This document shows positions 17,201-57,675 of a stretch of 64,000 nucleotides of DNA, one piece after another (positions within the stretch are counted from its first letter, which is position 1; each line of letters opens with the position of its first letter). Under the pieces are notes generated by a model. It made no database searches and was not told the DNA's origin. It was given only the letters and a program-made list of their open reading frames with translations. Origin of the DNA: Onthophagus taurus (Eukaryota > Arthropoda > Insecta > Coleoptera > Scarabaeidae). The stretch is from positions 7,199,501-7,263,500 of the forward strand of contig NC_091970.1 in assembly GCF_036711975.1 (NCBI RefSeq). The letters are read 5' to 3'. Position numbers and translations under genes: made by a program.

Positions 17201-17395
17201 TTTCTCAAGTGCTACTACTAACAACTTGAAAAAGCAACAAATTTGTCGAATTTTCATATTTTTATATTTTTCTTGTTATTGGCTTATCTAAAAGCAAAAG
17301 TGTAAGAGAGCAATATTGTTAATAATAAAATTTGCAATGACTATTGTTTGAAAAGTTTTTTTATAGCATGCTCCGTTTCTCGAGTGTTTAACTTT
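14286..17395. repeat. 175-bp satellite array (family 2), upstream block
   Basis: About 18 tandem copies with a 175-bp period; a marker is ctcgatatctatgcatc followed by gagcaaaagtgcaagagagc. Two stretches from 14833 and 15532 repeat the same sequence of monomer variants 699 bp apart, a 4-monomer higher-order step. Outer copies near 14290-14470 and 17150-17395 are the most diverged. The monomer keeps a frame open for 71 codons, but the same ORF simply recurs with each monomer, so it is not taken as coding. Confidence 0.96.
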
Positions 17396-25504: not shown

Positions 25505-28500
25505 TAATTTGAGTCCACCAGTTTAAAAATGATTATCTCAAAAACTGAATAATATTTTCAAAAGCGGAGTTTTTCATTAAAGAGACAAGACTTTTCTTTA
25601 TAAGTGACATAACTTTCAGAGGGATTTGTATAAAAAATGGATTTCTAACGATTTTTTTAAAATGCTTAACTTTGACAATTTTGGTTAACTTCAATACTGA
25701 TTATCTCAAAAACTAAATGGTATTTTCAAAATCGGATTGTTGCATTAAAAAGCGCACGCTTTCTTTTATAAGTGGTTTCAATTGCCAGATTAATGTTCCA
25801 GTAAATAGATTTTTAGCACAAAGAATACAATGACTTATCACGATAATTTTGGTTGATTTCAAGACTTATTATCACAAAAACTAAATGATATTTTCAAAAT
25901 CGGATTTTTGCATTAAAAAGGGCACACTTCCTTTTATAAATTCTTTCAATTTTCAGATTAATGCTCCAAGAAATAAATTTTTAGCGATTTTTTAATTACA
26001 AAGGAAACGGTGATTTATCATGAAAATTTTGGTTGAATTCAAGACGTATTATCTCAAAAACTAAATGATATTTTTAAAATCTAATTATTGCATTAAAAAG
26101 GGCACACTTTCTTTTATAAGTGTTTTCAATTTCCAAATTAATGTCCAAGAAATAGATTTTTAGCGATTTTTTAAATACAAAGAAAACAGTGAGTTATCAC
26201 GAAAATTTTGGTAAACTTTAAGACTTGTTATCTCAAAAACTAAATGATATTTTCAAAATCGGATTTTTGCATTAAAAAGGGCACACTTTCTTTTATAAGT
26301 GTTTTCAATTTCCAAATTAATGTCCAAGAAATAGATTTTTAGCGATTTTTTAAATACAAAGAAAATAGTAACTTGTGAAAATTTTGGTTGACTTCAAGAC
26401 TTATTATCTCAAAAACTAAATGATAGTTTCAAAATCGGATTATTGCATTAAAAAGGGCACACTTTCGTTTACAAGTGGTTTTAATTTCCAAGTTAATATT
26501 CTAGAAATAGATTTTTAGCGATTTTTTAAATACACACAAAATAGTAACTTGTGAAAATTTTGGTTGACTTCAAGACTTATTATCTCAAAAACTAAATGAT
26601 ATTTTCAAAATCGGATTTTTGCATTAAAAAGGGCACACTTTCTTTTATAAGTTGTTTTAATTTCCAGATTAATGTTCCAAGAAATAGATTTTTAGCGATT
26701 TTTTAAATACAAACAAAACAGTGACTTATCATGAAAATTTTGGTTGACTTCAAGATTTATTATCTCAAAAACTAAATGATATTTTCAAAATCGGATTTTT
26801 GCATTAAAAAGGGCACACTTTCTTTTATAAATAGTTTCAATTTCCACACTAACGTTCCAAGAAATAGATTTTTAGCGATTTTTTAAATACAAACAAAACA
26901 GTGATTTATCATGAAATTTTTGGTTGACTTCAAGACTTATTATCTCAAAAACTAAATGATATTTTCAAAATCGGATTTTTGCATTAAAAAGGGCACACTT
27001 CCTTTTATAAATTCTTTCAATTTTCAGATTAATGCTCCAAGAAATAAATTTTTTATTACAAAGAAAACAGTGATCATAAAAATTTTGGTTAACTTCAAGA
27101 CTTGTTATCTCAAAAACTAAATGATATTTTCAAAATCGGATTTTTGCATTAAAAAGGGCACACTTTCTTTTATAAATTCTTTTAATTTCCAGATTAATGT
27201 TCCAAGAAATAAATTTTTAGCGATTTTTTTAAATACAAACAAAACAGTGATTTATCATGAAAATTTTGGCTGACTTCAGGACATATTATTTCAAAAACTA
27301 AATGATATTTTCAAAATCGGATTTTTGCATTAAAAAGGGCACACTTTCTTTTATAAATTCTTTCAATTTTCAGATTAATGCTCCAAGAAATAGATTTTTA
27401 GCGATTTTTTAAATACAAACAAAACAGTGATTTATCATGAAAATTTTGGTTGACTTCAAGATTTATTATCTCAAAAACTAAATGATATTTTCAAAATCGA
27501 ATTTTTGGATTAAAAAGGGCACACTTCCTTTTATAAATTCTTTCAATTTTCAGATTAATGCTCCAAGAAATAGATTTTTAGCGATTTTTTAAATACAAAC
27601 AAAACAGTGATTTATCATGAAAATTTTGGTTGACTTCAAGATTTATTATCTCAAAAACTAAATGATATTTTCAAAATCGGATTTTTGCATTAAAAAGGGC
27701 ACACTTCCTTTTATAAATTCTTTCAGTTTTCAGATTAATGCTCCAAGAAATAAATTTTTAGCGATTTTTTAATTACAAAGAAAACAGTGATTTATCATGA
27801 AAATTTTGGTTAACTTCAAGACTTGTTATCTCAAAAACTAAATGATATTTTCAAAATCGGATTTTTGCATTAAAAAGGGCACACTTTCTTTTATAAGTTG
27901 TTTTAATTTCCAGATTAATGTTCCAAGAAATAGATTTTTAGCGATTTTTTAAATACAAAGAAAACAGTGATTTATCATGAAAATTTTGGTTGACTTCAAG
28001 ACTTGTTATCTCAAAAACTAAATGATGTTTTCAAAATCGGATTTTTGCATTAAAAAGGGCACACTTCCTTTTATAAGTTGTTTCAATTTTAAAATCAATG
28101 TTCCAAGAAATAGATTTTTCGCGATTTTTTAAAGTGATTTATCATAAAAATTTTGGTTAACTTCAAGACTTATTATCTCAAAAACTAAATGATATTTTCA
28201 AAATCGGATTATTGCATTTAAAAGGGCATACTTCCTTTTATAAATTCTTTCAGTTTTCAGATTAATGCTCCAAGAAATAATTTTTTTGCGATTTTTTAAA
28301 TACAAACAAAACAGTGATTTATCATGAAAATTTTGGTTGACTTCAAGATTTATTATCTCAAAAACTAAATGATATTTTCAAAATCGAATTTTTGGATTAA
28401 AAAGGGCACACTTCCTTTTATAAATTCTTTCAATTTTCAGATTAATGCTCCAAGAAATAGATTTTTAGCGATTTTTTAAATACAAACAAAACAGTGATTT

Positions 28501-29745
28501 ATCATGAAAATTTTGGTTGACTTCAAGACTTATTATCTCAAAAACTAAATGATATTTTCAAAATCGGATTATTGCATTTAAAAGGGCACACTTCCTTTTA
28601 TAAATTCTTTCAGTTTTCAGATTAATGCTCCAAGAAATGAATTTTTAGCAATTTTTTAATTACAAAGAAAACGGTGATTTATCATGAAAATTTTGGTTAA
28701 CTTCAAGACTTGTTATCTCAAAAACTAAATGATATTTTCAAAATCGGATTTTTGCATTTAAAAGGGCACACTTCCTTTTATAAATTATTTCAGTTTTCAG
28801 ATTAATGCTCCAAGAAATGAATTTTTAGCGATTTTTTAAATACAAACAAAACAGTGATTTATCATGAAAATTTTGGTTGACTTCAAGACTTATTATCTCA
28901 AAAACTAAATGATATTTTCAAAATCGGATTATTGCATTTAAAAGGGCACACTTCCTTTTATAAGTTGTTTCAATTTTAAATTTAATGTTCCAAGAAATAG
29001 ATTTTTAGCGATTTTTTAAATGCAAGCAAAACGGTGACTTATCATGAAAATTTTGGTTGATTTCAAAACTTATTATCTCAAAAACTAAATGATATTTTCA
29101 AAATCGGATTTTTGCATTAAAAAGGGCACACTTCCTTTTATAAATTCTTTCAGTTTTCAGATTAATGCTCCAAGAAATAAATTTTTAGCGATTTTTTAAT
29201 TACAAACAAAACAGTGATTTATCATGAAAATTTTGGTTGACTTCAAGATTTATTATCTCAAAAACTAAATGATATTTTCAAAATCGGATTTTTACATTAA
29301 AAAGGGCACACTTTCGTTTATAAGTGGTTTTAATTTCCAAGTTAATGTTCCAAGAAATAGATTTTTAGCGATTTTTTAAATACAAACAAAATACTAACTT
29401 ATCATGAAAATTTTGGTTGACTTCAAGACTTATTATCTCAAAAACTAAATGATATTTTCAAAATCAGATTTTTGCATTAAAAAGGGCACACTTTCTTTTA
29501 TAAATAGTTTCAATTTCCACACTAACGTTCCAAGAAATAGATTTTTAGCGATTTTTTAAATACAAAGAAAACAGTTTCTTATCATGAAAATTTTGGTTGA
29601 CTTCAAGATTTATTATTTCAAAAACTAAATGATATTTTCAAAAACGGTTTTTTTCATTTAAAAGATCACACCTTTCTTTATCACTTGTATCATTTTCAAA
29701 GCGATTCTGTACCAAATCGATTTTATACGATTTTTTAAATACAAG
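25505..29745. repeat. 180-bp satellite array (family 3)
   Basis: About 24 tandem copies with a period close to 180 bp; tatctcaaaa starts exactly at 26581, 26761 and 26941. Markers are tctcaaaaactaaatgatat, gcattaaaaagggcacac and agatttttagcgatttttt. A few copies carry small deletions (for example near 27050 and 28130). The array fills the whole gap between the peroxidase and the next gene. Confidence 0.96.
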
Positions 29746-30032
29746 CCAAAAAATATTAATTTTTTATTTTATCTTTTTCATCTCTTAGCATAAAGAATTT
29801 TTTCCCTTGTTATGTTAAATTTGACCACAGCACACGCACACATACTAAATTTTCTTATCGTCCTGCGCCGTTTCGTACGGGTATTGATCTTTCGCGGGTT
29901 CCCAGACCACATTAAAACTTTGAAACCATCAGTTCACATCAGGATTTTCAAACGGGAAGGTCCACCAAGTAAAAAATTGTACCGATCATTTAAAAATTAA
30001 ATTAAACTTGATAAGAACAACAAAAAAGCGAA

Positions 30033-30913
30033 ATGACGGTTCAAGTACAAAAAGAACCAAGCAAATTTCTTGTTTCTTTTTGTTGCTTTAAACCATCAAA
30101 ACCCCATGCTATAGTTTGTGCGATTTTATGGACGGTAAGAAATAATTTTTTTTATTTCCAAAATTAATTAAGTTGAATTTCAGATTTTTTTAAGTTTGAG
30201 TTTAATCGCTTGTATCATGATGTTTATCGAAGTTAAATTTCGCGCTGAGTTATTAAACGAAGATTATGTTGAAGAATTAGGTAAAAGAAAGCATCTTCAT
30301 AATGGTAGCGTTATTTTTGCGCCGAATGAAGCTAAATTATGCGAGAACATGGAAAAAACTATTTGTAAGTTTTTTTTTAACATTTTTTATAAATTAATTG
30401 ATTCATTATTGTTTTAGTTTTGGTTTCAAGTATTTATCAAATGTGTGAGACATCAACCATAAATTTCCTCGGCGCAATTTTCTCTTTATACTCAATTTTA
30501 AAATCGAAACCGTTATTCAGCGTCCCATTTTTCTTCTCATCGTTTTTAACAGGAATTTCCGCCACTTTTCTATTTGCCATAAACGGTTATTGGAAGGAAT
30601 TAATGCTTTTACCCAAAGAGAAATTACGTAAATGCCTAAATTTACTTACATCAAATACTTTTTTTTTGATTTGAAATTAATTATTAATTTTTTAGTGTAC
30701 GTCTCGTGTATATCATCGATTTTTGGGATATTAATGTTATCAATTTGGATTCCTTTGGCCGTTTATAACCTGGATCAATTAAAAAAATTGGTTAGGGACG
30801 CCGAAAGAATGAATCCGTTGAGTTTTCGGGCTTTTGGCGGGATGACGCACACGATTAAACCGAAAATGTTACCGAAAAAGTTTATCGAATCAAATCAAAA
30901 AGTCGAAAATTAA
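30033..30913 (+). CDS. Orphan four-transmembrane protein, about 236 aa
   Basis: Four exons: 30033-30134, 30184-30364, 30418-30627 and 30696-30913, all with GT-AG junctions in consistent phase. The protein starts MTVQVQKEPSKF and has four hydrophobic segments. The first (AIVCAILWTIFLSLSLIACI) spans the first junction. The others lie near INFLGAIFSLYSIL, LFSVPFFFSSFLTGISATFL and CISSIFGILMLSIWIPLAVY. The loop between spans 1 and 2 is long and charged, and the C-terminal tail of about 50 residues is basic. There is no cleavable signal peptide. I do not recognise the family; the shape is that of small insect tetraspan proteins (LAPTM- or DUF-type), which is only an analogy. A TCAGT initiator near 29927 could be its start site. 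Confidence 0.82.
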
Positions 30914-30922
30914 TTTATTTAA

Positions 30923-32712
30923 TTATTTTTGGTTGTAATCTCGTCTTCCAATTTGATTTCAATTCATTATTATTAAATTTATCTTCTAAAATCAAAAAGA
31001 CAAATTTTAAACAATCAAAAAATGTTTTAATTCTTTTGTGTTATTTAGTTGGAATCAATTTGATGAAAATAAAATTTTAATCATTAATTTCCCGGTGAAT
31101 TAATTCAATTTTAATTGATCCAATTCCCTTAAATCCCCATGTTAATAACATTATTTTGAATTTAAGCCTCTTTGGGACTTGGTTTCTTTGATTTGAAGTT
31201 GTATTATTGTTTATTTGGGGTTACCTTAACTTGCTTAAGAGTTAAATTTGCTTATATTACTTTTAAAGATGAGATCACAGCAAATCTCCAGATAGAATTC
31301 ATATTATGGTTTTAATATAGCTAGATTTCAAGCTTACTTTAATTCAATTGTCATTGCAAGGTTTAGGTCGAGTCAAATTTGAGTTATAAACAGTTGAATT
31401 GGATTGTTTTAGAATTGCAATTTCCAGAGTTACAATAAAGAACGATTTTTAATAAAAATGTACCTTTCTGTGAACTCGGGAGCCAATCTGAATCAACAAT
31501 TATAAATTATACAAGTAGTGGAAGATATGATCTACTACATCTACTTGATTCCTCAATTTATTAATAACAACAATCACTTTTGAATCGTATTTATACAAAA
31601 CTTCAACTTAGGTTGTTCGGAAACAAAATAACGTTATAACCACAAATTTTCTACAAAACTTTTCATTCCAACATTCCGTTCTTCTAACAAAGCTTTATTT
31701 ATTAAAAACTCATCGAAATAAGTTCCGTTGAACAACAAATATCTTAATTTGTCGTGATGAAAGTTTTATCGATGCAAACTTAACCTCAACATTTCCATTT
31801 TCCCTTTTAAAACATTTTCCACACGAATTGAAGAAAAATTGACCTACAACTTAATGCAATTTTATTCAAACAAAAATTTGGTGTGCTAACTAACCCTTTA
31901 TTATATTTATTGCAATAATAAACTTAAATAAACTTTATAATTTGACATCATTGACAGTTTCCATTTTAACTAACTTCATTTCGTTACACACTTCATTTTT
32001 GTATGTACATATATTTAAATAAAGCAACTAAAAATATTAATTTAACATAATTAATCCTTTTATTTATCAAATTTAGATTCATTTTGGCAGTTTTAGTTAA
32101 AAAATTACTTTAGATTAACGTTGATAAATCCACAGGTTTTGACAGGTTCGATTCAATTACATTCAGTTATCTTCAGTGTTATAAATTTAGTCATTATTAA
32201 AAGAGATTTTGAGCATTATAAATAAATTTTTGATTAAAATTATATGTAGGTGAGATTTTTTCCATTAATTCGTAAATTTTTAAGAGATTTCCCAGTTTAA
32301 ATTAATTAATTTGACAGTTAATTTTTGACAGTGACAGCTTCATCAAGCATTACAAATTTCTCTACTTTTTTGTGTTAATTTCAAGTTTACATATCTATTT
32401 AATATATTAAACCAACTTTTCCCATCATTTTTAATGGTATTGCTTATTCTTAAACAATTTTGACACAATTTGGCAGTTTTCAACTAAAATTTTGTGTCAA
32501 ATTTGATTTTGGTTTTATCGTTATGGTTATCTTATTATATTTTTAGGAATCCCTTCCATCCAAGAATCCAAGTTTTGCAGTCACAAAGAATACCAAATTG
32601 CATTGGGGGATAACTTCAAATAGGATATTCATCAAGAATCAATTTACGGAGGATTTTCAAAATCGGAGATAATTATAAAATTAAAAACGCTTATAAGTAA
32701 GTAACCTTGTGT
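30923..32712. repeat. Segmental duplication, decayed upstream copy
   Basis: This segment matches 32713-36089 in the same order and orientation, but with pieces missing. 30923-31150 matches 32713-32930 (3' UTR and end of the EVG1 gene). 31158-32546 matches about 34350-35463 (CMP-sialic acid synthase intron 1). 32547-32712 matches parts of that gene's exon 2 and the start of intron 2. The equivalent of about 32940-34345 (most of EVG1 and exon 1 of the synthase) is absent. The two copies abut at 32712/32713, so this is a tandem duplication followed by loss. Confidence 0.9.
32547..32668 (+). pseudogene. CMP-sialic acid synthase exon 2 remnant
   Basis: It starts with gaatcccttccatccaagaa just after an intact acceptor, exactly as the live exon at 35464. 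It then jumps to the segment matching about 35859, and later to those matching about 35958 and 36027. Three internal deletions therefore remove most of the nucleotidyltransferase core. The donor that is gag|gtaatt in the live copy is gagataatt here, so splicing is also lost. Non-functional. Confidence 0.9.
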
Positions 32713-32880
32713 TTATTTTTGGTTGTAATCTCGTCTTCCAATTTGATTAATATTATTAAATTTATCTTCTAAAATCAAAAGGAAAAATTTTAAACAATCA
32801 AAAAATGTTTTAATTCTTTTGTGTTTTAGTTGGAATTGATTTGATGAAAATAAAATTTTAATCGTTAATTTCCAGGTGAA

Positions 32881-33569
32881 TTAATTCGATTTTAATTGAT
32901 CCAATTCCCGTAATTTCTCTTGAATCTGCATGTTAATTAGATCCCGATATTGGTGTCCTTCCCCTAATTCCTCGATTTCTTTTAACCAATTTTGTCGATC
33001 TTCTATCTCTTGCACAACTTAAAAAGAAAATAATTAATAAATTAAATCAATTTTTAAGAAATAACTTACTCAAATCAAATTTATTAAGTTGCTTTTTCGG
33101 TTGTGGGGCTTTTTTCTTTTTAATTATAATTTCTCTTTCGTTCGGTTTCCCAAACGCCATAATTTTTTGTAATCGCTCTTTATCTTTTTCACGATCCTCT
33201 TTCGAATGATCAGGAACAAACGGGGGTACATCATAAGCACCCGAACCAACGATGGCTTCTCGGCTACGTTTACCCCAATTTGATAGTCGGATTAGCACCG
33301 GTGGTTGAGGGTTTTTCCCGCTGTAATATTTTGGGCCATCCGATACGAATTTTGGAAGTGATTGGCCGTTTCGTAAAGTGTAATTCACTTTGTTTCTTAA
33401 TTTATTGTTCATATGACTTTCATCCATTAACACTAAATTAATTATAAACTAAAAAAATTTTTAAATATAAAAACTCACATTTGAGGTAATTTTTTGTATC
33501 GGGGCTATAATTAGCTTTCGCTGTGTGAAAAATACCACCGTGTGGTACATTTTTACTCGGCCACTCCAT
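32881..33569 (-). CDS. UPF0193 (EVG1/C22orf23-type) protein, 196 aa
   Basis: Three exons on the minus strand: 33569-33479, 33432-33070 and 33017-32881, with donors gtgagt and gtaagt and matching phases. The protein starts MEWPSKNVPHGGIFHTAK. It has a central block KVNYTLRNGQSLP, a basic middle (KKKKAPQPKK) and a coiled C-terminal end ELGEGHQYRDLINMQIQEKL. That end matches what I recall of the conserved tail of vertebrate C22orf23 (UPF0193 protein EVG1). No enzymatic function is known for the family and its pattern elsewhere hints at cilia or sperm. It has no signal peptide. It lies 195 bp from and divergent to the CMP-sialic acid synthase start, so the two may share a promoter region. Confidence 0.85.
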
Positions 33570-33764
33570 CTCTTAACTTTTTATTAGTAGTATTTTTTAA
33601 AGGTGATAAAAATCAGTGTCAACGATAAAACTATTTGAAACTATAGTAACCGTTTAATCAATAAATTCGAGTTGTAACAACCTTTATATTAATAAATTAG
33701 ATAAACGGTTAATTCCGTTATACAGCTTCGTTTTATTCAGAGATATTTTTGTTAGGGTTAAAAG

Positions 33765-36556
33765 ATGTTAAGAACGTTGTTATGTTTGTTGGTGTTGGTT
33801 GAAAACATTTTGTGCTGTACCATAAAAACTTGGTAAATAAGAACTTTTCTTTGTTAATTCAATCAATAAATTATCAAACCCAACGAATTTTATACCTTGA
33901 ATTTGTATCATCTTCAATTAATGATTCAATAACATAACCACACCTCATTGCCTGTATATTAAGACAATAAATACTAGATATTCTTCTTGAATATCAAGTC
34001 GAACCTAATTCTTTGAAAAATATGGAATTTTAAAAAGTAACAGAAAATAATTTCTCAAAGTTTGGACACTTTTGTATTATTTAGGAGTTAATAAATAGAT
34101 TGGCAAATAGTTAAATCAAAGAATATTCCATGCATGTTTGTTAAAGTCGTTCATAGAGGAAAATATGTCCAGCTTAACCCATTATATCATATCATATCTC
34201 GGTCTTCTCTCCAAAACAAACATGGTTTGCACAACATGTCTTTTACCCACCTGTTAAGGAAAGAATAAACACCAAGATAATGTTCCTAATGTTTTGGCAT
34301 CAACCTCAAAATCAAAAAAAAATCGTTGAATCCGGCTTAGATTACTTTATATTTGAGCCTCTTTAATTTGAAGTTGTATTATTTTTTTTATTTGGGGTTA
34401 ACTTAATTTGCTTAAGAATTAAATTTGATTAAACAATATTATTTATTCAATCTTAATCAACGATTATGAAAGAAATGATCTACTACATCTTCTTGATTCC
34501 TGAATTTATTAATAACAATAATCACTTTTGAATCGTATTTCTAAAAAACTCCAACTAAGGTTGTTCGGAAAGAAAATAACGTCATAACCACAATAAATTT
34601 TCTACAAAATTTTTCATTCCAACATTCCGTTCTTCTAACAAAGCTTTATTTATTAAAAACTCATCAAAATATGTTCCGTTGAACAACAAATATCTTAATT
34701 TGTCGTGATATCCATGCAAACTTAACCTCAACATTTCCATTTTCCCTTTTAAAGCATTTTCCACACGAATTGAAGAAAAATGGATCTACAACTTAACGCA
34801 ATTTTATTCAATCAAAAATTTGGGGTGTTAACTAAGCCCTTTATTTTATTTATTACAATAATAAACTTAAATAAACTTTAAGCAAATTTGACATCATTGA
34901 CAGTTTCCATTTTAACTAACTTCATTTCGTTACTCACTTCATTTTTGTATGTATATTTAAATAAAACAACTAAAAATATTAATTTAACATAATTAATCGT
35001 TTTATTTATCAAATTTAGATTCATTTAAGCAGTTTTAGTTCAAAAATTACTTTAGATTAACGTTGATAAATCCACAGGTTTTGACAGGTTCGATTCAATT
35101 ACATTAACATTTATTAATATTTATAATTGCATTATTAAAATAGATTTTGAACGTTATAAGTAAATTTCTGATTAAAATTGCATTTAGGTGAGATTTTTTC
35201 CATTAATTCGTAAATTTTTAAGAGATATTATAATTTAAATTTATTAATTTGACAGTTAATTTTTGACAGTGACAGTTTCATCAAGTATTACAAATTTCTC
35301 TACTTCTTTGTGTTAATTTCAAGTTTACACATCTATTTAATAAGATTATACTGAGTTTTTTCATCATTTTTAAAGGTATAGCTTATTTTTAAATAATTTT
35401 GAGTCAATTTGATAGTTTTCAACTAAAATTTTGTGTCAAATTTGATTTTGGTTATATTTTTAGGAATCCCTTCCATCCAAGAAATAAACATTTTGCGGCT
35501 TTAATTTTAGCAAGAGGCGGATCAAAAAGTATCCCATTAAAAAATTTATCTCTAATTGGAAATTTAACCTTACTAGAAAAATCATTGGGTGTAATCGAAT
35601 CCGCTCAAGTATTCGATTCGATTTGGGTATCGACTGATAACGAAGAAATCGCATTAAAAGCATCAAGAGTTAACGTTCATTACAACGTAAATAATAATGT
35701 TTCGGGGGATTTCTCGTCGTCGATTGACGCAGTAAAATATTTCCTAACGTTTCATAAAGAAATCGACATCCTCGCCTTAGTTCAATGCACTTCGCCTTTT
35801 TTGAATCGTAATCATTTAAAAAGGGGCGTCTCGATTTTAAGATCGGGCGAAGAATGTAGTTTTGCAGTCACAAAGAATACCAAATTGCATTGGGGGAGAA
35901 CTTCGAATGGGATATTTCCGGTTAATTTTGACCCAAAATCGCGTCCGAGACGTCAAGACATTAAGAATCAATTTACGGAGAATGGAATGTTTTATATTTC
36001 GACGAGAAAGTTATTAAATTCGGGATATTTTCAAAATCGGAGGTAATTATAAAATTAAAAACGCTTCCAAGTAAATAACCTTGTGTTTAAACGATTATTT
36101 ATTACGTTGTTAATGTTTAACGTGATAATTTCATATTTATTTATAGATTTCGTGATTTTAATTTAAGTCATTTCAACGTTCTTTAAGTTTGTTGATGGAA
36201 TTTAACCTTTTCCACGTAAAGAATCGGAAATCGAGTGAAAGTGGCTACCGCGCAGGAGTGAAACGACAAAACAATCGCCAGCAAGGCATTTGTTTCTCTT
36301 CGTTTTTTTTATTTGTTGTTCAGTTGTCTATGTCAGTGGTAACGCGATCGCGCGCGTTTAATTTACAAATTATTACGACATCCTGTATATAACTGTTATC
36401 AACTCTTTCCAAAGCGATAGTACGTGCTCTCGTTCCAGATGCGTTCTCGTAGAAATCCCGAGGGAACTCAGCATCGAAATCGACTCAGTATGGGATTTAA
36501 AAGTTGCCAATAAACTACAAGAATTATTTTTGAACGAGAATGACAACGGATTTTAG
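33765..36556 (+). CDS. N-acylneuraminate cytidylyltransferase (CMP-sialic acid synthase), 254 aa
   Basis: Activates sialic acid with CTP to CMP-sialic acid. Exons: 33765-33832, 35464-36042 and 36439-36556. Exon 1 encodes a signal peptide (MLRTLLCLLVLVENILCC) and ends in TG, which joins G at 35464 to make Trp. Exon 2 holds the nucleotidyltransferase motif ALILARGGSKSIPLKN (near residues 35-50), WVSTDNEEIA and LVQCTSPFL. Exon 3 gives EIPRELSIEIDSVWDLKVA, matching the family's sialic-acid-binding and dimerisation segment. It lacks the vertebrate C-terminal phosphatase-like domain, as insect forms do. The signal peptide fits the Golgi/ER location known for insect enzymes, unlike the nuclear vertebrate enzyme. 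The last 17 nt overlap the SNX8 start. Intron 1 is part of the local duplication. Confidence 0.92.
34582..34785 (-). pseudogene. Exon-like open frame in CMP-sialic acid synthase intron 1
   Basis: After a possible acceptor (aagttgtag on the minus strand), a frame runs 67 codons to a stop at 34582. It includes MEMLRLSLHGYHDKL and NGTYFDEFLINKALL. The duplicated copy (about 31640-31825) keeps most of the same reading but has a stop or frameshift at the HGYHDK position and a lost codon. Two of the differences are silent. I do not recognise the peptide and see no partner exon. It may be a relic of an old gene. Confidence 0.35.
36319..36375 (+). promoter_or_regulatory. Candidate SNX8 promoter in synthase intron 2
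   Basis: Two TCAGT-type initiator matches (gttcagttgtc and atgtcagtgg) lie directly before a CpG-dense run (acgcgatcgcgcgcgttt), the only such run for kilobases. A transcript starting here would read unspliced through the synthase's third exon to the SNX8 ATG at 36540. Confidence 0.4.
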
Positions 36557-39500
36557 CGCAGGTAATTAAATTTTTAAAATTTAAAAATCTTTTTCGTTTT
36601 ATGTAAACTTAGATATAACGAAAAATATTATTTATTTCCTGAGATAATGAGTTTTGAAGTTTATCACGATTTTTAGCACGTTTCAAGGTTAATAATTCTC
36701 GTCGGTTTAATTTAAAAATTCGTTGAAAGTTGGATTCGTAGAAAATCTCGTTGTGAGGCGATAACTTTACTCAAAAATTATTAAAATCAATTTGGAAATG
36801 AGTGTTAAAATCACAAATTTATATACATTAATAAATTAAACAACAAATAATAATTGCTTTTAATCATTTTGAATCATAACTTTATGTGTTGTTCACAATA
36901 TTAGCAGTGACTCATTGCTTGATTCTTAGATTTTATAAAAATTTACCACAATATTTTAGCAGTGTTTAGTCATATGCCAGCAGTATCTAGCGTTTTATAA
37001 CAAGAATCTGGTTCTCTGCCAACTGCATCTAGTATTCTATAAGCATTATCTTGTCTCCTGCGAGCAGGGTTTAGTCTTCTATGAGGAGGATTTAGGCTTC
37101 TGCTTACCATTTCTAGTATCTACAAGCTATAGGCAGTCTCTACTCTTCTATTAGCGCTATCAACTCTTTCAATAACATATTTAGTCTTTTGCCATCAATT
37201 TCTAGTGTTCTCAAGGAGAATCTAATACACTGCTTGCTTTATCTTGCCTGTTGTCAGTAATATTTGGTATTCTCATAGCATTAGAAAGTGCTTTATTAGT
37301 ACCACCTCTCTCAATAACAAAATCTAATCTTCTGCCAGCAGAATATTGTCTTCTATAAGGAAGATCTAATTTAATGCTTGCAAGTGTTTTGTATTCCGCC
37401 AACAATATCTAGTCTTTTACAAGCAAAAGGTCTTCTATAAGCATTATCTTGTCTCCTGCGAGCAGGGTTTAGTCTTCTATGGCGGGAATTTAGGCTTCTG
37501 CTTACTGTTTCTAGTATCTACAAGCTATAGGCAGTCTCTACTCTTCTATTAGCGCTATCAACTCTTTCAATAACATATTTAGTCTTTTGCCATCAATTTC
37601 TAGTCTTCTCAAGGAGAATCTAATACATTGCTTGCTTTATCTTGCCTGTTGTCAGTAATATTTGGTATTCTCATAGCATTAGAAAGTGCTTTATTAGTAC
37701 CACCTCTCTCAATAACAGAATCTAATCTTCTGCCAGCAGAATATTGTCTTCTATAAGGAAGATCTAATTTAATGCTTACAAGTGTTTTGTATTCCGCCAA
37801 CAATATCTAGTCTTTTGCAAGCAAAAGGTCTTCTATAAGCATTATCTTGTCTCCTGCGAGCAGGGTTTAGTCTTCTATGAGGAGGATTTAGGCTTCTGCT
37901 TACCATTTCTAGTATCTACAAGCTATAGGCAGTCTCTACTCTTCTATTAGCGCTATTAACTCTTTCAATAACATTATATTTAGCCTTTTGCCATCAATTT
38001 CTAGTCTTCTCAAGGAGAATCTAATACACTGCTTGCTTTATCTTGCCTGTTGTCAGTAATATTTGGTATTCTCATAGCATTAGAAAGTGCTTTATTAGTA
38101 CCACTTGTCTCAATAACAGAATCTAATCTTCTGCCAGCAGAATATTGTCTTCTATAAGGAAGATCTAATTTAATGCTTGCAAGTGTTTTGTATTCCGCCA
38201 ACAATATCTAGTCTTTTACAAGCAATAGGTCTTCTATAAGCATTATCTTGTCTCCTGCGAGCAGGGTTTAGTCTTCTATGAGGAGGATTTAGGCTTCTGC
38301 TTACCATTTCTAGTATCTACAAGCTATAGGCAGTCTCTACTCTTCTATTAGCGCTATCAACTCTTTCAATAACATTATATTTACTCTTTTGCCATCAATT
38401 TCTAGTCTTCTCAAGCAGAATCTAATACACTGCTTGCTTTATCTTGCCTGTTGTCAGTAATATTTGATATTCTCATAGCATTAGATAGTGCTTTATTAGT
38501 ACCACCTCTCTCAATAACAGAATCTAATCTTCTGCCAGCAGAATATTGTCTTCTATACGGAAGATCTAATTTAATTCTTGCAAAATTTAGTCTTGTGAAG
38601 TGTTTTGTATTCCGCCAACAATATCCAGTCTTTTACAAGCAAAAGGTCTTCTATAAGCATTATCATGTCTTCTGCGAGTAGGGTTTAGTCTTCTATGAGG
38701 AGGATTTAGGCTTCTGCTTACCATTTCTGGTATCTACAAGCTATAGGCAGTCTCTACTCTTCTATTAGCGCTATCAACTCTTTCAATAACATATTTAGTC
38801 TTTTGCCATCAATTTCTAGTCTTCTCAAGGAGAATCTAATACACTGCTTGCTCTATCTTGCCTATTGTCAGTAATATTTAGTATTCCCATAGCATTAGAA
38901 AGTGCTTTATTAGTACCACCTCTCTCAATAACAGAATCTAATCTTCTGCCAGCAGAATATTGTCTTCTATAAGGAAGATCTAATTTAATGCTTGCAAGTG
39001 TTTTGTATTCCGCCAACAGTATCTAGTCTTTTACAAGCAAAAGGTCTTCTATAAGCATTATCTTGTCTCCTGCGAGCAGGGTTTAGTCTTCTATGAGGAG
39101 GATTTAGGCTTCTGCTTACCATTTCTAGTATCTACAAGCTATAGGCAGTCTCTACTCTTCTATTAGCGCTATCAACTCTTTCAATAACATTATATTTAGT
39201 CTTTTGCCATCAATTTCTAGTCTTCTCAAGGAGAATCTAATACACTGCTTGCTTTATCTTGCCTATTGTCAGTAATATTTAGTATTCTCATAGCATTAGA
39301 AAGTGCTTTATTAGTACCACCTCTCTCAATAACAGAATCTAATCTTCTGCCAGCAGAATATTGTCTTCTATACGGAAGATCTAATTTAATTCTTGCAAAA
39401 TTTAGTCTTGTGAAGTGTTTTGTATTCCGCCAACAATATCTAGTCTTTTACAAGCAAAAGGTCTTCTATAAGCATTATCTTGTCTCTTGCGAGCAGGGTT

Positions 39501-42500
39501 TAGTCTTCTATGAGGATGATTTAGGCTTCTGCTTACCATTTCTAGTATCTACAAGCTATAGGCAGTCTCTACTCTTCTATTAGCGCTATCAACTCTTTCA
39601 ATAACATTATATTTAGTCTTTTGCCATCAATTTCTACTCTTCTCAAGCAGAATCTAATACACTGCTTGCTTTATCTTGCCTGTTGTCAGTAATATTTGGT
39701 ATTCTCATAGCATTAGAAAGTGCTTTATTAGTACCACCTCTCTCAATAACAGAATCTAATCTTCTGCCAGCAGAATATTGTCTTCTATACGGAAGATCTA
39801 ATTTAATTCTTGCAAAATTTAGTCTTGCGAAGTGTTTTGTATTCCGCCAACAATATCTAGTCTTTTACAAGCAAAAGGTCTTCTATAAGCATTATCTTGT
39901 CTCCTGCGAGCAGGGTTTAGTCTTCTATGAGGAGGATTTAGGCTTCTGCTTACCATTTCTAGTATCTACAAGCTATAGGCAGTCCCCACTCTTCTATTAG
40001 CGCTATCAACTCTTTCAATAACATATTTAGTCTTTTGCCATCAATTTCTAGTCTTCTCAAGGAGAATCTAATACACTGCTTGCTTTATCTTGCCTGTTGT
40101 CAGTAATATTTGGTATTCTCATAGCATTAGAAAGTGCTTTATTAGTACCACCTCTCTCAATACCAGAATCTAATCTTCTGCTAGCAGAATATTGTCTTCT
40201 ATACGGAAGATCTAATTTAATGCTTGCAAGTGTTTTGTATTCCGCAACAATATCTAGTCTTTTACAAGCAAAAGGTCTTCTATAAGCATTATCTTGTCTC
40301 CTGCGAGCAGGGTTTAGTCTTCTATGAGGAGGATTTAGGCTTCTGCTTACCATTTCTAGTATCTACAAGCTATAGGCAGTCCCCACTCTTCTATTAGCGC
40401 TATCAACTCTTTCAATAACATATTTAGTCTTTTGCCATCAATTTCTAGTCTTCTCAAGGAGAATCTAATACACTGCTTGCTTTATCTTGCCTGTTGTCAG
40501 TAATATTTGGTATTCTCATAGCATTAGAAAGTGCTTTATTAGTACCACCTCTCTCAATACCAGAATCTAATCTTCTGCTAGCAGAATATTGTCTTCTATA
40601 CGGAAGATCTAATTTAATGCTTGCAAGTGTTTTGTATTCCGCAACAATATCTAGTCTTTTACAAGCAAAAGGTCTTCTATAAGCATTATCTTGTCTCCTG
40701 CGAGCAGGGTTTAGTCTTCTATGAGGAGGATTTAGGCTTCTGCTTACCATTTCTAGTATCTACAAGCTATAGGCAGTCTCTACTCTTCTATTAGCGCTAT
40801 CAACTCTTTCAATAACATTATATTTAGTCTTTTGCCATCAATTTCTAGTCTTCTCAAGGAGAATCTAATACACTGCCTGCTTTATCTTGCCTGTTGTCAG
40901 TAATATTTGGTATTCTCATAGCATTAGAAAGTGCTTTATTAGTACCACCTCTCTCAATAACAGAATCTAATCTTCTGCCAGCAGAATATTGTCTTCTATA
41001 AGGAAGATCTAATTTAATGCTTGCAAGTGTTTTGTATTCCGCCAACAATATCTAGTCTTTTACAAGCAAAAGGTCTTCTATAAGCATTATCTTGTCTCCT
41101 GCGAGCAGGGTTTAGTCTTCTATGAGGAGGATTTAGGCTTCTGCTTACCATTTCTAGTATCTACAAGCTATAGGCAGTCTCTACTCTTCTATTAGCGCTA
41201 TCAACTCTTTCAATAACATTATATTTAGTCTTTTGCCATCAATTTCTAGTCTTCTCAAGCAGAATCTAATACACTGCTTGCTTTATCTTGCCTGTTGTCA
41301 GTAATATTTGGTATTCTCATAGCATTAGAAAGTGCTTTATTAGTACCACCTCTCTCAATAACAGAATCTAATCTTCTGCCAGCAGAATATTGTCTTCTAT
41401 ACGGAAGATCTAATTTAATTCTTGCAAAATTAAGTCTTGTGAAGTGTTTTGTATTCCGCCAACAAAATCTAGTCTTTTACAAGCAAAAGGTCTTCTATAA
41501 GCATTATCTTGTCTCCTGCGAGCAGGGTTTAGTCTTCTATGAGGAGGATTTAGGCTTCTGCTTACCATTTCTAGTATCTACAAGCTATAGGCAGTCTCTA
41601 CTCTTCTATTAGCGCTATCAACTCTTTCAATAACATTATATTTAGTCTTTTGCCATCAATTTCTAGTCTTCTCAAGCAGAATCTAATACACTGCTTGCTT
41701 TATGTTGCCTGTTGTCAGTAATATTTGGTATTCTCATAGCATTAGAAAGTGCTTTATTAGTACCACCTCTCTCAATAACAGAATCTAATCTTCTGCCAGC
41801 AGAATATTGTCTTCTATACGGAAGATCTAATTTAATTCTTGCAAAATTTAGTCTTGTGAAGTGTTTTGTATTCCGCCAACAATATCTAGTCTTTTACAAG
41901 CAAAAGGTCTTCTATAAGCATTATCTTGTCTCCTGCGAGCAGGGTTTAGTCTTCTATGAGGAGGATTTAGGCTTCTGCTTACCATTTCTAGTATCTACAA
42001 GCTATAGGCAGTCCCTACTCTTCTATTAGCGCTATCAACTCTTTCAATAACATATTTAGTCTTTTGCCATCAATTTCTAGTCTTCTCAAGGAGAATCTAA
42101 TACACTGCTTGCTTTATCTTGCCTGTTGTCAGTAATATTTGGTATTCTCATAGCATTAGAAAGTGCTTTATTAGTACCACCTCTCTCAATACCAGAATCT
42201 AATCTTCTGCTAGCAGAATATTGTCTTCTATACGGAAGATCTAATTTAATTCTTGCAAAATTTAGTCTTGTGAAGTGTTTTGTATTCCGTCAACAATATC
42301 TAGTCTTTTACAAGCAAAAGGTCTTCTATAGGCATTATCTTATCTCCTGCGAGCAGGGTTTAGTCTTCTATGAGGAGGATTTAGGCTTCTGCTTACCATT
42401 TCTAGTATCTACAAGCTATAGGCAGTCTCTACTCTTCTATTAGCGCTATCAATTCTTTCAATAACATTATATTTAGTCTTTTGCCATCAATTTCTAGTCT

Positions 42501-45500
42501 TCTCAAGCAGAATCTAATACACTGCTTGCTTTATCTTGCCTGTTGTCAGTAATATTTAGTATTCTGATACCATTAAATAGTGCTTTATTAGTACCACCTC
42601 TCTCAATAACAGAATCTAATCTTCTGCCAGCAGAATATTGTCTTCTATAAGGAAGATCTAATTTCATGTTAACAATATCTAGTCTTTTACAAGCAGTATC
42701 TTGTCTTTAAGTAGCAGTATCTAATATCTTTCGAGCAGGGTTAGGTTGGGTTGGTAGCGATATAGTTTTGACAAGCAATTTGATACATTGAGGCAGTTTG
42801 CTGACCTTACCTGAGGTCCTTCCTCTTTTATCCGGGCTTGGGTCCCATCCTGCCTCATAGGCAGAGTTAGTTTTTTATGTAAATATTTGATTTGATTTAT
42901 TGTATAGTAAGGGTGGTTGCCGCTAGATGGGGTGAGAAATTGTTTAAAAAAGAAGGATATATAAAAAATATGAAAATATAAATTAAATGATTTTTTTTTA
43001 GGTTCTATTCCGAGCGTTTACCGAGAACTCTATGATACATGCTCACACGACGGTGAAATAATACATAAAGATGTGTATAAAAAACTGTTAGCTCAATCAA
43101 AACTGGACGTGGAAGTTTTAAAAACAATTTACGATTTAATCGTGACTGAAAATGATGTAATTACAAGAACTGGTTTTTATAAAACGTTAGCGTTAATTTC
43201 TTGGGGTCAACAAGGCAAAAATCCCAGCAATAAATTGTTTGAAACCTTCGATGGGACAGGTAACTTATTAAAAAAATTTCTCTTTATGATTCTTATTATT
43301 TCTTTTTATTTAGTTTACCCAATTCCCAATTTAGGAGATTTGAGTTCGTTGAAAAGCTTAAAAATTTATTATAACCTACAAAAAAACCCGTCGAAATTAA
43401 ATTTAACCTATTTAGATATAACCCAATTAGAGACAATCAACATCGAATTAGTTCCAGAGAAAAAAGGAATATTTTTAAAACATTCCGAGTATATAGTCAG
43501 TTCCCAAAAGAGAGGTGTTAAAGTTACGAGGCGTTACAACGATTTTGTCGCGTTGTATGAGTTATTATTAAGTAGATTTCCTTATAGGTAAATCACAAAA
43601 TTGTTAAAGCGATTAATTTTAATCTTTATTTTTTAGAATTATCCCCCGTTTACCTCCAAAGAAAATAGTTTCCGATTCGCATTTCTTAGAATCTCGCCGT
43701 CGTGGTCTTAATCGGTGGTTAACACTTATTTGTAGACACCCAACGATTTCTAATGATGGCTTATTAATATTCTTTTTAACCGATCAAGGAAACGATGTTC
43801 AATATCGGATTAGAGACATATTTAGAAGAGCTCCAGATGAGTTTATGACGTCAGATTACGCAGCAAATTCAAAAGTAAATAAACAAATAATTTAATCCGA
43901 ATAATTAATTTTTTGTAACCCCAAGGAATTGGTGCCGAAAGATAACACAGAATTCGCATCGAACCGAGAACAAGTTAAAACTTTAGTGAATATAATTTCA
44001 AAAATCAAAAACATCGCCGATTCGAACGTCGAGCGATTCCACAATTACTCAAAAGATAACGACGTTTTATCGACCCAATTAAAATGTTTAGGGGCTGTTA
44101 ATTTGGGACAATCAGGATCGAATTGGTCGCAAATGCAAAGGGGATTCACCGCAATCTCAAAGTAAGTTTAATAATTAATAGAGATTAATTGGACCGCTTT
44201 ATACATCACTTGCTTACGCGACATTTTATCGCTTTTAGAGTTTTTTATGTTGTTATGTCAACCTTAATTTTGACATATTTCTCAACTTCATAAAAAATCC
44301 TTTAAAATGAGTCCAAACTCGGCATATTTAACTTTAATATTAATGGAGATACGATCACTTCCGGTTTGAAACGTCAACGTCAATTTTGACATATTTATCA
44401 TCTTCATTGAAAAACCTTTAAAATGAGTCCAAAGATGACGCACTTATCTCAAAAAACAAAAAAGTTGGAATAAAAAACGTTAAACCCGAAGTTAGCAACA
44501 ATGAAGATGACAATTTAATTTTTAAATATTAATACCAACCTTAATTTTTTATATTATATTTTTGTTTTTGTGACAAATATTAAGACATTTTATAAAAATT
44601 AAGAATATGTCAAAATGATGTTGACATTTCAAACCGGAAGTTGACCATAACGTCATTAATATTGAAGATAAATACGTCGTGTTTGTACTCATTTTAAAGG
44701 ATTTTTAATGAAGATTACAAATACGTCAAAATTGAGGTTGACATTTTAAACCTGAAATAAAATAACCTTCAAAGTGAATTCAAACTTGACGCATTTATCT
44801 CAAAAAACAAAAAGTTCGAACTTTCAATTTTTAATTTAACATATTTATCAACATCATAAAAAATCCTTTAAAATGAGTCCAAACTCGGCATATTTAACTT
44901 TAATATTAATGGAGATACGATCACTTCCGGTTTGAAACGTCAACGTCAATTTTGACATATTTATCATGTTCATTAAAAAACCTTTAAAATGAGTCCAAAG
45001 ATGACGCACTTGTCTCAAGAAACAAAAAAGTTGGAATAAAAAACATTAAACCCGAAGTTAGCAACAATGAAGATAGCAATTTAATTTTTAAATATTAATA
45101 CCAACCTTAATTTTTAATTTTTCTTTTATTATATTTTTGTTTTTGTGACAAATATTAAGACATTTTATAAAAATTCAGAATATGTCAAAATGACGTTGAC
45201 ATTTCAAACCGGAAGTTGACCATAACTTCATTAATATTGAAGATAAATACGTCGTGTTTGTACTCATTTTAAAGGATTTTTAATGAAGATTACAAATACG
45301 TCAAAATTGAGGTTGACATTTTAAACCTGAAATAAAATAACCTTCAAAGTGAATTTAAACTTGACGCATTTATCTCAAAAAACAAAAAGTTCGAACTTTC
45401 AATTTTTAATTTAACATATTTGTCAACATCATAAAAAATCCTTGAAAATGAGTCCAAACTCGGCATATTTAACTTTAATATTAATGGAGATACAATCACT

Positions 45501-46783
45501 TCCGGTTTGAAACGTCAACGTCAATTTTGACATATTTGTCATCTTCATTAAAAAACCTTTAAAATGAGTCCAAAGATGACCCACTTATCTCAAAAAACAA
45601 AAAAGTTGGAATAGAAAACGTTAAACCCGAAGTTAGCTACAATGAAGATAGCAATTTAATTTTTAAATATTAATACCAACCTTAATTTTTAATTTTTTTT
45701 ATTATATTTTTGTTTTTGTGACAAATATTAAGTTATTTTATAAAAATTAAGAATATGTCAAAGTGACGTTGACATTTCAAACCGGAAGTTGCTTATATCT
45801 CGAGTAATATTGGAATTAAACGTATCGTGTTTGGACTCATTTTAAAGGATTTTTCACGACGATTACAAATATGTCAAAATTGACGTTGACATTCTTAACC
45901 GGAAGTTGACCATAACTTCATTAATATTGAAGATAACTATGTCGTGTTTGTACTCATTTTAAAGGATTTTTAATGGAGATTACAAATATGTCATAATTAA
46001 GGTTGACATTTTAAACCTGAAGTTAGTTATCATGTAATAGAAGTTTTATAAACGAAGTTAATCTAGTGATAGTCACTTTTCTGCACTTTCTCTTTATTTT
46101 AAACGTGTTTTTTTGGGTTATTTCACATTGATTAAAAAAAAATCGTCGATAACCACTGACCAAGCGGCTTCTGTGCTTGTAATAGATCTCGTTTTTCTCC
46201 ACATTGTTCATTTGTCGCTTAGTCAAGTGATACATAACGTGGTCCAATTATTAAGTAATTTATTTAGGGATTTGACATCTTTATCATCAAAAGCCGAGCA
46301 ACAAGCCAATATTGAACAAATGACCGTTTGCGAACGTTTAGATCTACTTTTAGACGTGTTAATCGGCCATAAAGATCTTTGCGAGCGCTTAGAAAAAGGA
46401 TTAGCCAACGATCATCAAACGGCTTTGGCCAAAATGCTTTCGTTGAAGAAGCGAAAAATTCAAGGAGTTATTAAAGGAGTCGATGTAATTTGTTTTTAAA
46501 CACAAGGACGTTTTATTTAGATTATTTTTTTTAGGCTGAAAGCGTTGAGCAACTTGAAACGAAGATGTTGGCCCAAGAAAATGTAATAACCAACATGGAG
46601 TTACGTTCTGATTTTAGTTTGTACTGCGTGCACATGGAAACTCAGTTAGTTCACGCTTATTTGGAGACTTTATCCTCGATTTTGAGTAGTTTAATTAATC
46701 TAAGGATAAGATCCCACACAGAATTGGCGAATATTTGGAAGCAAGTTGTTGAGAATTTTTTACCAAAAAAAAATGGATCATAA
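36540..46783 (+). CDS. Sorting nexin 8 (PX-BAR protein), 512 aa
   Basis: An endosomal membrane-binding coat protein. Exons: 36540-36561, 43002-43259, 43314-43587, 43637-43874, 43926-44161, 46223-46484 and 46535-46783; all phases agree. Exon 1 encodes only MTTDFSA plus one base. An EH-like N-terminal part (VYRELYDTCSHDGEIIHKD) precedes the PX domain (about residues 134-260). This has IELVPEKKG and RRYNDF, where the Arg-Arg-Tyr is the phosphoinositide-binding signature, and then PRLPPKK. The C-terminal half (about 290-510) is helical and BAR-like (ERLDLLLDVLIGHKDLCERL). The start codon lies inside the last exon of the CMP-sialic acid synthase, in the +1 frame. Intron 1 (6.4 kb) and intron 5 (2.1 kb) hold tandem repeats. 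AATAAA follows the stop within about 20 bp. Confidence 0.92.
36900..42720. repeat. Nested ~400-bp satellite in SNX8 intron 1 (family 4)
   Basis: Fourteen tandem copies with steps of 397-402 bp (short form) or 414-418 bp (long form). The long form carries about 17 extra bases around aaaatttagtcttgtg. Each monomer is itself built from about 19 diverged units of 20-21 bp with consensus near atctagtcttctacaagcag. Short and long monomers alternate in patches. Two adjacent copies near 40057 and 40454 are almost identical. Open frames on both strands are by-products of the repeat. Confidence 0.95.
44270..46030. repeat. ~570-bp tandem repeat with inverted modules in SNX8 intron 5 (family 5)
   Basis: Three copies, with aaaatgagtccaaactcggc at about 44304, 44870 and 45445, so a step of 566-575 bp. 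Each copy contains both cttccggtttgaaacgtcaa and its near-perfect reverse complement ttgacatttcaaaccggaag. It also holds aaaatgagtcc and, inverted, ctcattttaaagg. Each unit is therefore an inverted pair of modules. The array lies entirely within the intron between exons 43926-44161 and 46223-46484. Confidence 0.9.
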
Positions 46784-47064
46784 CGATAAATATAAATAAA
46801 AATAAATATGATAAATGTGATATAAAATTTGTTTATGTAAAAAAAAAATTATTTTTGTTCGTTAAAGCGTCATTTATATTATTTATAATTTATAATATAG
46901 TTTTTAGGACTAAATTACAATAAACTCTCCTACTAAAACAGCTATAAATGAGCAACAAATCCAATAAACTCTAATTAATTAATTATAATTAACAGAATTT
47001 CATTTCAGCTTCAGATATGGATTTATTTATGATTTATTGTACAAACTTCAATCTTAAAATTTCT
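46784..47064. terminator. Convergent 3' region of SNX8 and TBC1D16
   Basis: A 281-bp AT-rich gap between two converging stop codons. It holds several AATAAA sites for SNX8 (from about 46793). On the minus strand, AATAAA for TBC1D16 lies near 47024. No other gene is present. Confidence 0.6.
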
Positions 47065-50000
47065 TTATAACGCATTTGGGCAATAACCATGTTGTTGTTG
47101 TTCATGCCCCGTGCAATAAACTCTCGGGCTATGAGAGCTATCCCAAATCCCAGGCCCACAACGCATACAAAGTCCAGATAAAGTACAAGGAATTTCTCGA
47201 AGTTGCCGAAATTGGTGGAGGAGCCCCCTCGCTTTCCTCGCAATTAATTGCCCATCCATATACATCGCTAAAAAATTAACACAAACAATCAATTCATTTA
47301 AAACAATTAAATTGATTTAATCACCCAAAGAGCTAAAATGCAACAACATCTCATCCGCTTTTAAATCTTGGGCGATTACATCATCGGCGTAAACGCAAAT
47401 TATCGCCAAACAAAGAAATAAATGGAAATAGTCCGTTAAATAATTCGCCCAACAAGCTTCCCACATCCTCAAAGCAACCCCTTCGGTAAATTCTCGTTTA
47501 AAACATCTAAATCAAAAAGAAAAAATAAGAATAAAAAAAATTTAAATTGTAATTAATTTACAATAAAATCCAACGGTGACAAAACAATAATTCATTCGCA
47601 TCTTTATGCTTTTGAAGGTGATCGTAAAACTTCGGGACCATAATCCTAACCAATTCCCGTAAAAATTTTAATGATCTATCCATATCTCGATCGGTTGGTG
47701 TTGCCACAAAAACGGCTCTTTGCATTAAACCAACGAAGCACCAAAACGCGGCTACTTCATCGCGTAATTCGCATAAAACGGGGGCTAATAAATCACTCAT
47801 TCCTTGTGTGTACCCCAAACCTGGGTTATACACGGCGTAATTTAATAAGATGTTTTTCATTATGTCTAAATTAGGGTTTGGATCTCCCGCAAAAAATGGA
47901 TTTGCTCGGTCCGTTCTTACAACGTCCTTTTCAACTACACTTTGTACTTTTCTTTTAAATTGATTTAATTGGTTTCCGTTTAAATCTAAGCGTCTTCTTG
48001 TTATTTCATCATATTCCTAAAAATTAAAGTTTAAATATAAATTTATATAATAACGTTTTTTTTTTTACCTGTCTTCGAATTTCTGCAATTTGTTCTCTTT
48101 CTTCGTAAGTACTATTATAAGGATAACAATGCAATAAAAAAGGCCAAACTTCTTTCCTGAGCGTTCTTTCCATGCCAGCGAAAAATACGGATTTTCTCAA
48201 AGTTAAATCATCTTCCATTTGACCATGTTCGTTAAATAAACACCGAAATAATTCTTCGGTAAGTTTTGGAACTTGACCTTCTTCCGGGTGAAGTTCTAAA
48301 TCGGATACTTCCGGTCTACATACCATAAAGTGTCGATAAGGTAAATTATCATCACAACCTAAAATAATTATTAATTTAATATTGACAGGATAAAAAGTTT
48401 AGGACTTTTCGATTCCATTTAAAGTTTTTTTATCAAAATTTAACCAACTTTAATAATTTTAACTGTCAAAAATTCTATTTAATATGAATATCACTAGATG
48501 GGGTAATAAACTGTTATAAAAATAACTTATTTAATAATTAATATTATTTGATTTAGACTCAACTTTCTAACATTTTTTGGCATATTTCAAGAATTCGCTT
48601 ATTTTATGTGTTACTAATAATAACGATATCATTTTAGTTTAATAAACTAAGAGAAAATTTATTTATACGAAAAGATCGCCATCTATTATCATAAAAGCGT
48701 ACTATATTACTAATGACGTTTCAAGTCGTTTCAACGAAGTGTCAAAATTTGAAGTTGCCATAAAATGTGATTTTGCCATAAAATTAGCCATTATGTGTTC
48801 AGATAATCGACCCACTATTGGTAGCAAGGAGGCGGTAAGTAACTCAAACTTTTTAATCATCAAAATTGAACACAAATTTCTCGTGAAAAATTTTGCTGGT
48901 AGTTTCTTGAATTTTGAAGTTATTCAATTGATATTTTAGCAAATATTAGATAAATACTTAGTTTTTATTATTTAAAGTGGTTTTTTAATTAATTTAAACC
49001 TTTTAATTTAATAATTTAAGTTTAATTTATTTTTACGGCAAAATAAGCGCCATCTATTATCATAAAAGCGTACTATATTACTACTGACGTTTCAAGTCGT
49101 TTCAACGAAGTGTCAACATTTGAAGTTGCCATAAAATGTGATTTTGCCATAAAATTAGCCATTGGGTGTTCAGATAATCGACCCACTATTGGTAACAAGG
49201 AGGCGGTAAGTAACTCAAACTTTTTAATCATCAAAATTGAACACAAATTTCTCGTGAAACATTTTGCTGGTAGTTTCTTGAATTTTGAAGTTATTCAATT
49301 GATATTTTAGCAAATATTAGATAAATACTTAGTTTTTATTATTTAAAGTGGTTTTTTAATTAATTTAAACCTTTTAATTTAATAATTTAAGTTTAATTTA
49401 TTTTTACGGCGGAATAAGCGCCATCTATTATCATAAAAGCGTACTATATTACTAATGACGTTTCAAGTCGTTTCAACGAAGTGTCAAAATTTGAAGTCGC
49501 CATAAAATGTGATTTTGCCATAAAATTAGCCATTGTGTGTTCAGATAATCGACCCACTATTGGTAGCAAGGAGGCGGTAAGTAACTCAAACTTTTTAATC
49601 ATCAAAATTGAACACAAATTTCTCGTGAAAAATTTTGCTGGTAGTTTCTTGAATTTTGAAGTTATTCAATTGATATTTTAGCAAATATTAGATAAATACT
49701 TAGTTTTTATTATTTAAAGTGGTTTTTTAATTAATTTAAACCTTTTAATTTAATAATTTAAGTTTAATTTATTTTACGGCGAAATAAGCGCCATCTATTA
49801 TCATAAAAGCGTACTATATTACTAATGACGTTTCAAGTCGTTTCAACGAACTGTCAAAATTTGTTGTTGCCATAAAATGTGATTTTGCCATAAAATTAGC
49901 CATTGCGTGTACATAATCGACCCACTATTGGTAACAAGGAGGCGGTAAGTAACAAACTTTAAAATAACCCAACTTGAATACAAATTTAATAAAAAGCGCA

Positions 50001-57672: not shown

Positions 57673-57675
57673 AGT

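Follow-up and report, generated by a model that had tools for sequence, protein, structure and literature searches.

A predicted 17-nt coding overlap between a CMP-sialic acid synthase gene and an SNX8-type sorting nexin gene in the beetle Onthophagus taurus

Introduction

How can the coding sequence of one gene begin inside the last coding exon of an unrelated gene on the same strand? The question is raised by a 64,000-nucleotide (nt) stretch of the Onthophagus taurus genome (assembly GCF_036711975.1, contig NC_091970.1, positions 7,199,501 to 7,263,500), hereafter the window, in whose coordinates all positions are given. Here, the predicted gene for a CMP-sialic acid synthase (CSAS) ends within the predicted first coding exon of a sorting nexin gene, SNX8. 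An initial annotation proposed the two genes and their overlap and offered two readings, a dicistronic mRNA or SNX8 transcription starting within the synthase gene, and these are indeed the main ones. Re-translation together with Pfam and PDB matches bore out the gene identities, the coordinates, the splice phase and the sharing of 17 nt at every base. We favour a separate SNX8 promoter within CSAS over an obligate dicistronic mRNA.

Results

The last coding exon of CSAS contains the candidate SNX8 start codon, ATG at 36540-36542 (+). From there, 22 nt (ATGACAACGGATTTTAGCGCAG) run to 36561 and are followed by GTAATT, a potential donor that begins at 36562, 6 nt past the CSAS stop codon (TAG, 36554-36556). 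The two frames are offset by one base over the common stretch. Because a TGA stands just upstream in the SNX8 frame, ATG 36540 is the only start possible for that exon; the base at -3 relative to it is A, and the predicted N-terminal peptide of SNX8 is (M)TTDFSAGSIPSVYR. Translation of the joined exons gave zero internal stops in both gene models, and all introns have GT/AG ends. The overlap is thus described by a well-supported gene model, with these features:

36531-36533 (+), TGA in frame with the SNX8 ATG and 9 nt 5' of it (sequence)
36540-36556 (+), 17 nt of DNA coding in both frames (gene-model translation)
36540-36561 (+), proposed SNX8 first coding exon, MTTDFSA with G at the junction (phase and donor score)

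The second SNX8 exon has no Met and is entered in phase 1, with one codon base coming from upstream, and therefore requires an upstream phase-1 coding exon. On the plus strand of 30001-43001 we found 76 phase-1 ATG-to-GT stretches with 62 distinct donors, which were scored with an approximate donor matrix untrained on this genome. No candidate scored better than the one at 36540, whose donor at 36562 reached 5.95, the top of the 76 and also the highest value among the 359 GT sites in 36001-43001. The runner-up donors were those at 30134 (5.12), 33300 (3.88), 30280 (1.47) and 38677 (1.22), and the remainder scored at most 0.00. Across the plus strand of the window, 19 of 3100 GT sites score at least 5.94, and 36540 is the sole phase-1 candidate at this level in the whole 64 kb (one on the plus strand, none on the minus strand). 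The donor word GTAATT also closes CSAS exon 2 and SNX8 exon 6. An equal candidate appeared in none of 2000 dinucleotide shuffles of 36439-36611.

The runner-up exons were rejected for their positions. Two of them (30128-30134 and 30217/30220-30280) lie beyond a minus-strand open reading frame (ORF) of another gene at 33047-33448, 33252-33300 is antisense to that ORF, and 38665-38677 sits within a tandem array and has a weak donor. A strong donor at 42931 (5.69) after an ATG at 42927 is in phase 2, a frame incompatible with the acceptor side at 43002.

The CSAS model comprises 254 amino acids in three coding exons on the plus strand:

33765-33832 (+), CSAS coding exon 1 (MLRTLLCLLVLVENILCC..., by eye resembling a signal peptide; from translation, the start being without homology confirmation)
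35464-36042 (+), CSAS coding exon 2, cytidylyltransferase core (Pfam CTP_transf_3, 1qwj)
36439-36556 (+), CSAS coding exon 3 with the stop TAG at 36554-36556 (alignment with the C-terminal portions of 1qwj and 9t4z)

The predicted protein matched Pfam CTP_transf_3 with an E-value of 2e-16 (60.7 bits, cut-off 22.6), and a PDB search returned as its closest solved relative the CMP-NeuAc synthetase 1qwj (E 2e-40), which we take to be the mouse enzyme. With this cytidylyltransferase core and this closest structure, the gene model is that of a CMP-sialic acid synthase. The alignment reaches query residue 239 with 1qwj and residue 244 of 254 with PpNeuA (9t4z). Since both extend into exon 3, the terminal CSAS exon is supported as homologous sequence, and since they end at residue 244 at the latest, the codons shared with SNX8 fall in the non-aligned tail. 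Joining exon 1 straight to exon 3, with exon 2 skipped, leads to an immediate stop. In the beetle's own 290.8-Mb genome, PF02348 matched once at E<=0.01 (2 candidates scored). Secretory localisation is described for the CSAS of Drosophila and also of a mosquito and a beetle (PMC12144448), and the signal-like exon-1 peptide looks consistent with it.

The SNX8 model spans 36540 to 46783 on the plus strand and encodes 497 amino acids in 7 exons. Downstream of the proposed first exon, it consists of:

36562-43001 (+), SNX8 intron 1, 6.4 kb (GT/AG ends)
43002-43259 (+), SNX8 exon 2, weakly EH-like, without Met (translation, Pfam)
43314-43587 (+), SNX8 exon 3, start of PX (Pfam, PDB)
43637-43874 (+), SNX8 exon 4, PX and start of BAR (Pfam, PDB)
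43926-44161 (+), SNX8 exon 5, BAR (Pfam)
46268-46484 (+), SNX8 exon 6, BAR (gene-model translation)
46535-46783 (+), SNX8 exon 7 with stop (gene-model translation)

Searches with a first-draft SNX8 protein gave a PX domain (Pfam E 6e-20), a Snx8_BAR_dom match barely above its cut-off (27.3 bits vs 27) and, as best PDB match, Mvp1 (6q0x, E 5e-24). From its PX domain and Snx8/Mvp1 BAR, the predicted protein is an SNX8/Mvp1-type sorting nexin. At the N-terminus, an EH domain stayed below the Pfam cut-off (15.5 bits vs 22), and in the PDB the N-terminal exon matched Eps15 EH domains at E 0.6-0.8, outranked by a bacterioferritin at E 0.06. Exons 2 and 3 matched the beetle's own genome at this locus only (2 candidates scored).

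Two further features bear on how the two transcripts might begin and end:

36220-36438 (+), proposed SNX8 promoter in the CpG-rich 3' half of CSAS intron 2 (CpG density)
36830-36835 (+), AATAAA in SNX8 intron 1, possibly the poly(A) signal of CSAS (274 nt past the CSAS stop)

The first holds 77.6 CpG per kb, whereas CSAS intron 1 has 12.9 and an intron further along SNX8 has 27.4, and the 240-base window at 36221 ranks at the 99th percentile for CpG across the 64 kb. A TATA-like TATATA at 36386 and an initiator-like TCAGTT at 36320 were also seen, both uncalibrated against chance. The same holds for the AATAAA, a word expected often in AT-rich DNA.

Most of SNX8 intron 1 is occupied by a repeat, and about 0.8 kb of the intron is left when it is subtracted:

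37035-42675 (+), 5.6-kb tandem array, 417-bp unit, 13.9 copies, 95% matches (repeat analysis)

This array has a periodicity of 21 bases (self-match of 42% at lag 21, where lags 5-69 average 28%) inside the 417-bp unit and therefore resembles a higher-order repeat. Degenerate 21-bp repeats are also present at 13600-13800, where the reverse complement resembles the sub-units of the array by eye. Further tandem arrays were found at 1-2344, 4303-11723, 14310-17388, 19095-21827, 25818-29744, 48656-49987, 57675-58226 and 61384-61971, many with units of 175-180 bp and others with units of 371 and 142 bp. Together with the 417-bp array and 45752-46024, the arrays take up about 28 kb of the window (28,019 bases, including one 129-base overlap counted twice).

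Among neighbouring features, the open frame at 33047-33448 (-), of 133 amino acids, is placed divergently to CSAS, roughly 0.3 kb away from its start, which could mean a common promoter region for the two; we presume that the frame resembles the UPF0193/EVG1 family. CpG-rich open frames at 53952-55097 (+) are presumably of a Tc1/mariner-type transposase, and an open frame at 62323-63789 (-) is one that we take to be a non-LTR retrotransposon reverse transcriptase.

Searches for relatives in prokaryote and viral contig collections gave 89 and 7 peptide-pattern matches, respectively, of which zero were confirmed, as expected for an insect gene. RNA families in 33000-47000 numbered zero at the gathering threshold, and no paper with both CSAS and SNX8 was among the open-licence literature matches listed.

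Discussion

The initial annotation described same-strand coding overlap of this type as rare in animals. This is fair, but the class has already been catalogued: FlyBase recognizes a "multiphase exon" class of 18 pairs (36 genes) with coding overlap in different frames, most below 40 nt (PMC4528330). Like these pairs, CSAS and SNX8 are two distinct coding genes on the same strand that share a short stretch of DNA in different frames in their best gene models, and the locus is probably a further case of this class; unlike the FlyBase set, in which 26 of the 36 genes are on polycistronic transcripts, here the overlap is predicted from gene models. The insect Su(var)3-9/eIF2-gamma locus similarly combines two functionally unrelated proteins in overlapping transcription units (PMC1435931, PMC4528330). 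There, however, start and frame are shared, whereas CSAS and SNX8 overlap end to start in different frames, and the TGA at 36531 precedes the SNX8 ATG, so that a fusion with a shared start and an in-frame N-terminus was not found.

We lean towards a reading in which most SNX8 expression is driven by a promoter of its own, in intron 2 or exon 3 of CSAS, and the coding ends overlap by 17 nt. CSAS would be transcribed from 5' of 33765, with exon 3 as its last exon and poly(A) addition within SNX8 intron 1. Most SNX8 transcription would begin at the internal promoter, and the mRNA, starting 5' of 36540, would be translated from ATG 36540 and spliced from the donor at 36562 to 43002. The overlap may have arisen by drift of the CSAS stop into the start of SNX8, because the shared codons lie past the residues that align to other synthases. 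SNX8 is broadly expressed. Drosophila CSAS, in turn, is confined to glia (PMC10110239), and a separate promoter would suit a broadly needed sorting nexin beside a synthase of such limited expression.

Several observations weigh against this reading. The CpG argument for an SNX8 promoter is weak and uncalibrated on known promoters: with 62.2 and 59.3 CpG per kb, the CSAS exons that flank intron 2 are about equally dense, and the stretch 5' of CSAS, the expected site of the CSAS promoter, has only 31.6 CpG per kb. An mRNA that begins in CSAS intron 2 could hold upstream ORFs, for example at 36330 and 36439. No processed copy was found in the beetle's own genome, where the joined query matched two genomic exons only (E<=10). 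When CSAS exon 3 was recoded synonymously 5000 times, 4854 of the recodings still had an open ATG in frame ahead of the donor, because Asn-Glu and Asn-Asp codons readily make ATG in the SNX8 frame. The ATG is thus near-inevitable given the CSAS peptide and is in itself no evidence; the weight lies on the donor and its phase. Shuffles of the longer interval 36043-43001 contained at least one equal candidate in 11.5% of 200 cases, and among the accepted donors of CSAS and SNX8 (six of seven scored) the lowest value is 0.14, so that a true first exon with a weak donor is possible. The polycistronic transcripts that carry the 26 FlyBase genes also belong here, as they favour a single mRNA (PMC4528330).

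Such a dicistronic mRNA would start at the CSAS promoter and be spliced from 36562 to 43002, with SNX8 translated by reinitiation or internal entry. We regard it as unlikely, although it is the alternative that fares best. It would accommodate a donor only 6 nt behind the CSAS stop, 159 dicistronic gene pairs are reported for D. melanogaster, and stop-start coupling has been documented in influenza B BM2 (PMC3035654). As the sole source, however, this mRNA would tie SNX8 to the expression pattern of CSAS, which in flies is limited to glia (PMC10110239). In addition, the whole CSAS ORF would stand ahead of the SNX8 AUG, reinitiating ribosomes would have to move backward to an AUG 14 nt before the CSAS stop, and CSAS has a possible poly(A) signal of its own at 36830. 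The influenza B M1/BM2 system resembles our locus in that a downstream AUG lies near an upstream stop, but there the arrangement is UAAUG (PMC3035654), whereas here the AUG precedes the stop by 14 nt and coupling is hypothetical. It is very improbable that one mRNA yields CSAS and SNX8 in a fixed proportion through coupled termination and backward reinitiation; if true, coupled translation would link an enzyme of Golgi sialylation with a sorting nexin of endosomes.

The view that SNX8 starts elsewhere, in an exon with a weak donor, at a non-AUG codon or in an exon further upstream, is somewhat less likely than a dicistronic mRNA. It would make the match at 36540 a chance event, for which the shuffles of the long interval, the cheapness of an ATG and the low scores of genuine donors all leave room; besides the donor at 36562, four distinct candidate donors (30134, 33300, 30280 and 38677) score at least 0.14. 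Between 36562 and 43001, however, the top other phase-1 candidate reaches only 1.22 and lies in the tandem array, and a strong donor 6 nt past the CSAS stop, equalled in none of the local shuffles, would be left unexplained. Least probable of all is that the donor, placed directly after the CSAS stop, serves a CSAS 3' untranslated region intron or a read-through chimera and that no SNX8 protein starts at 36540, since introns of this kind are uncommon and SNX8 would be left without a start.

A separate SNX8 promoter within CSAS is thus the explanation that we favour. If it is true, the promoter of a trafficking gene sits within a sialylation gene, and the last codons of CSAS constrain the start of the unrelated SNX8. 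Automatic annotation might then truncate or fuse either gene, and in this animal neither mutations and knock-downs of the two genes nor their expression counts could be taken as independent.

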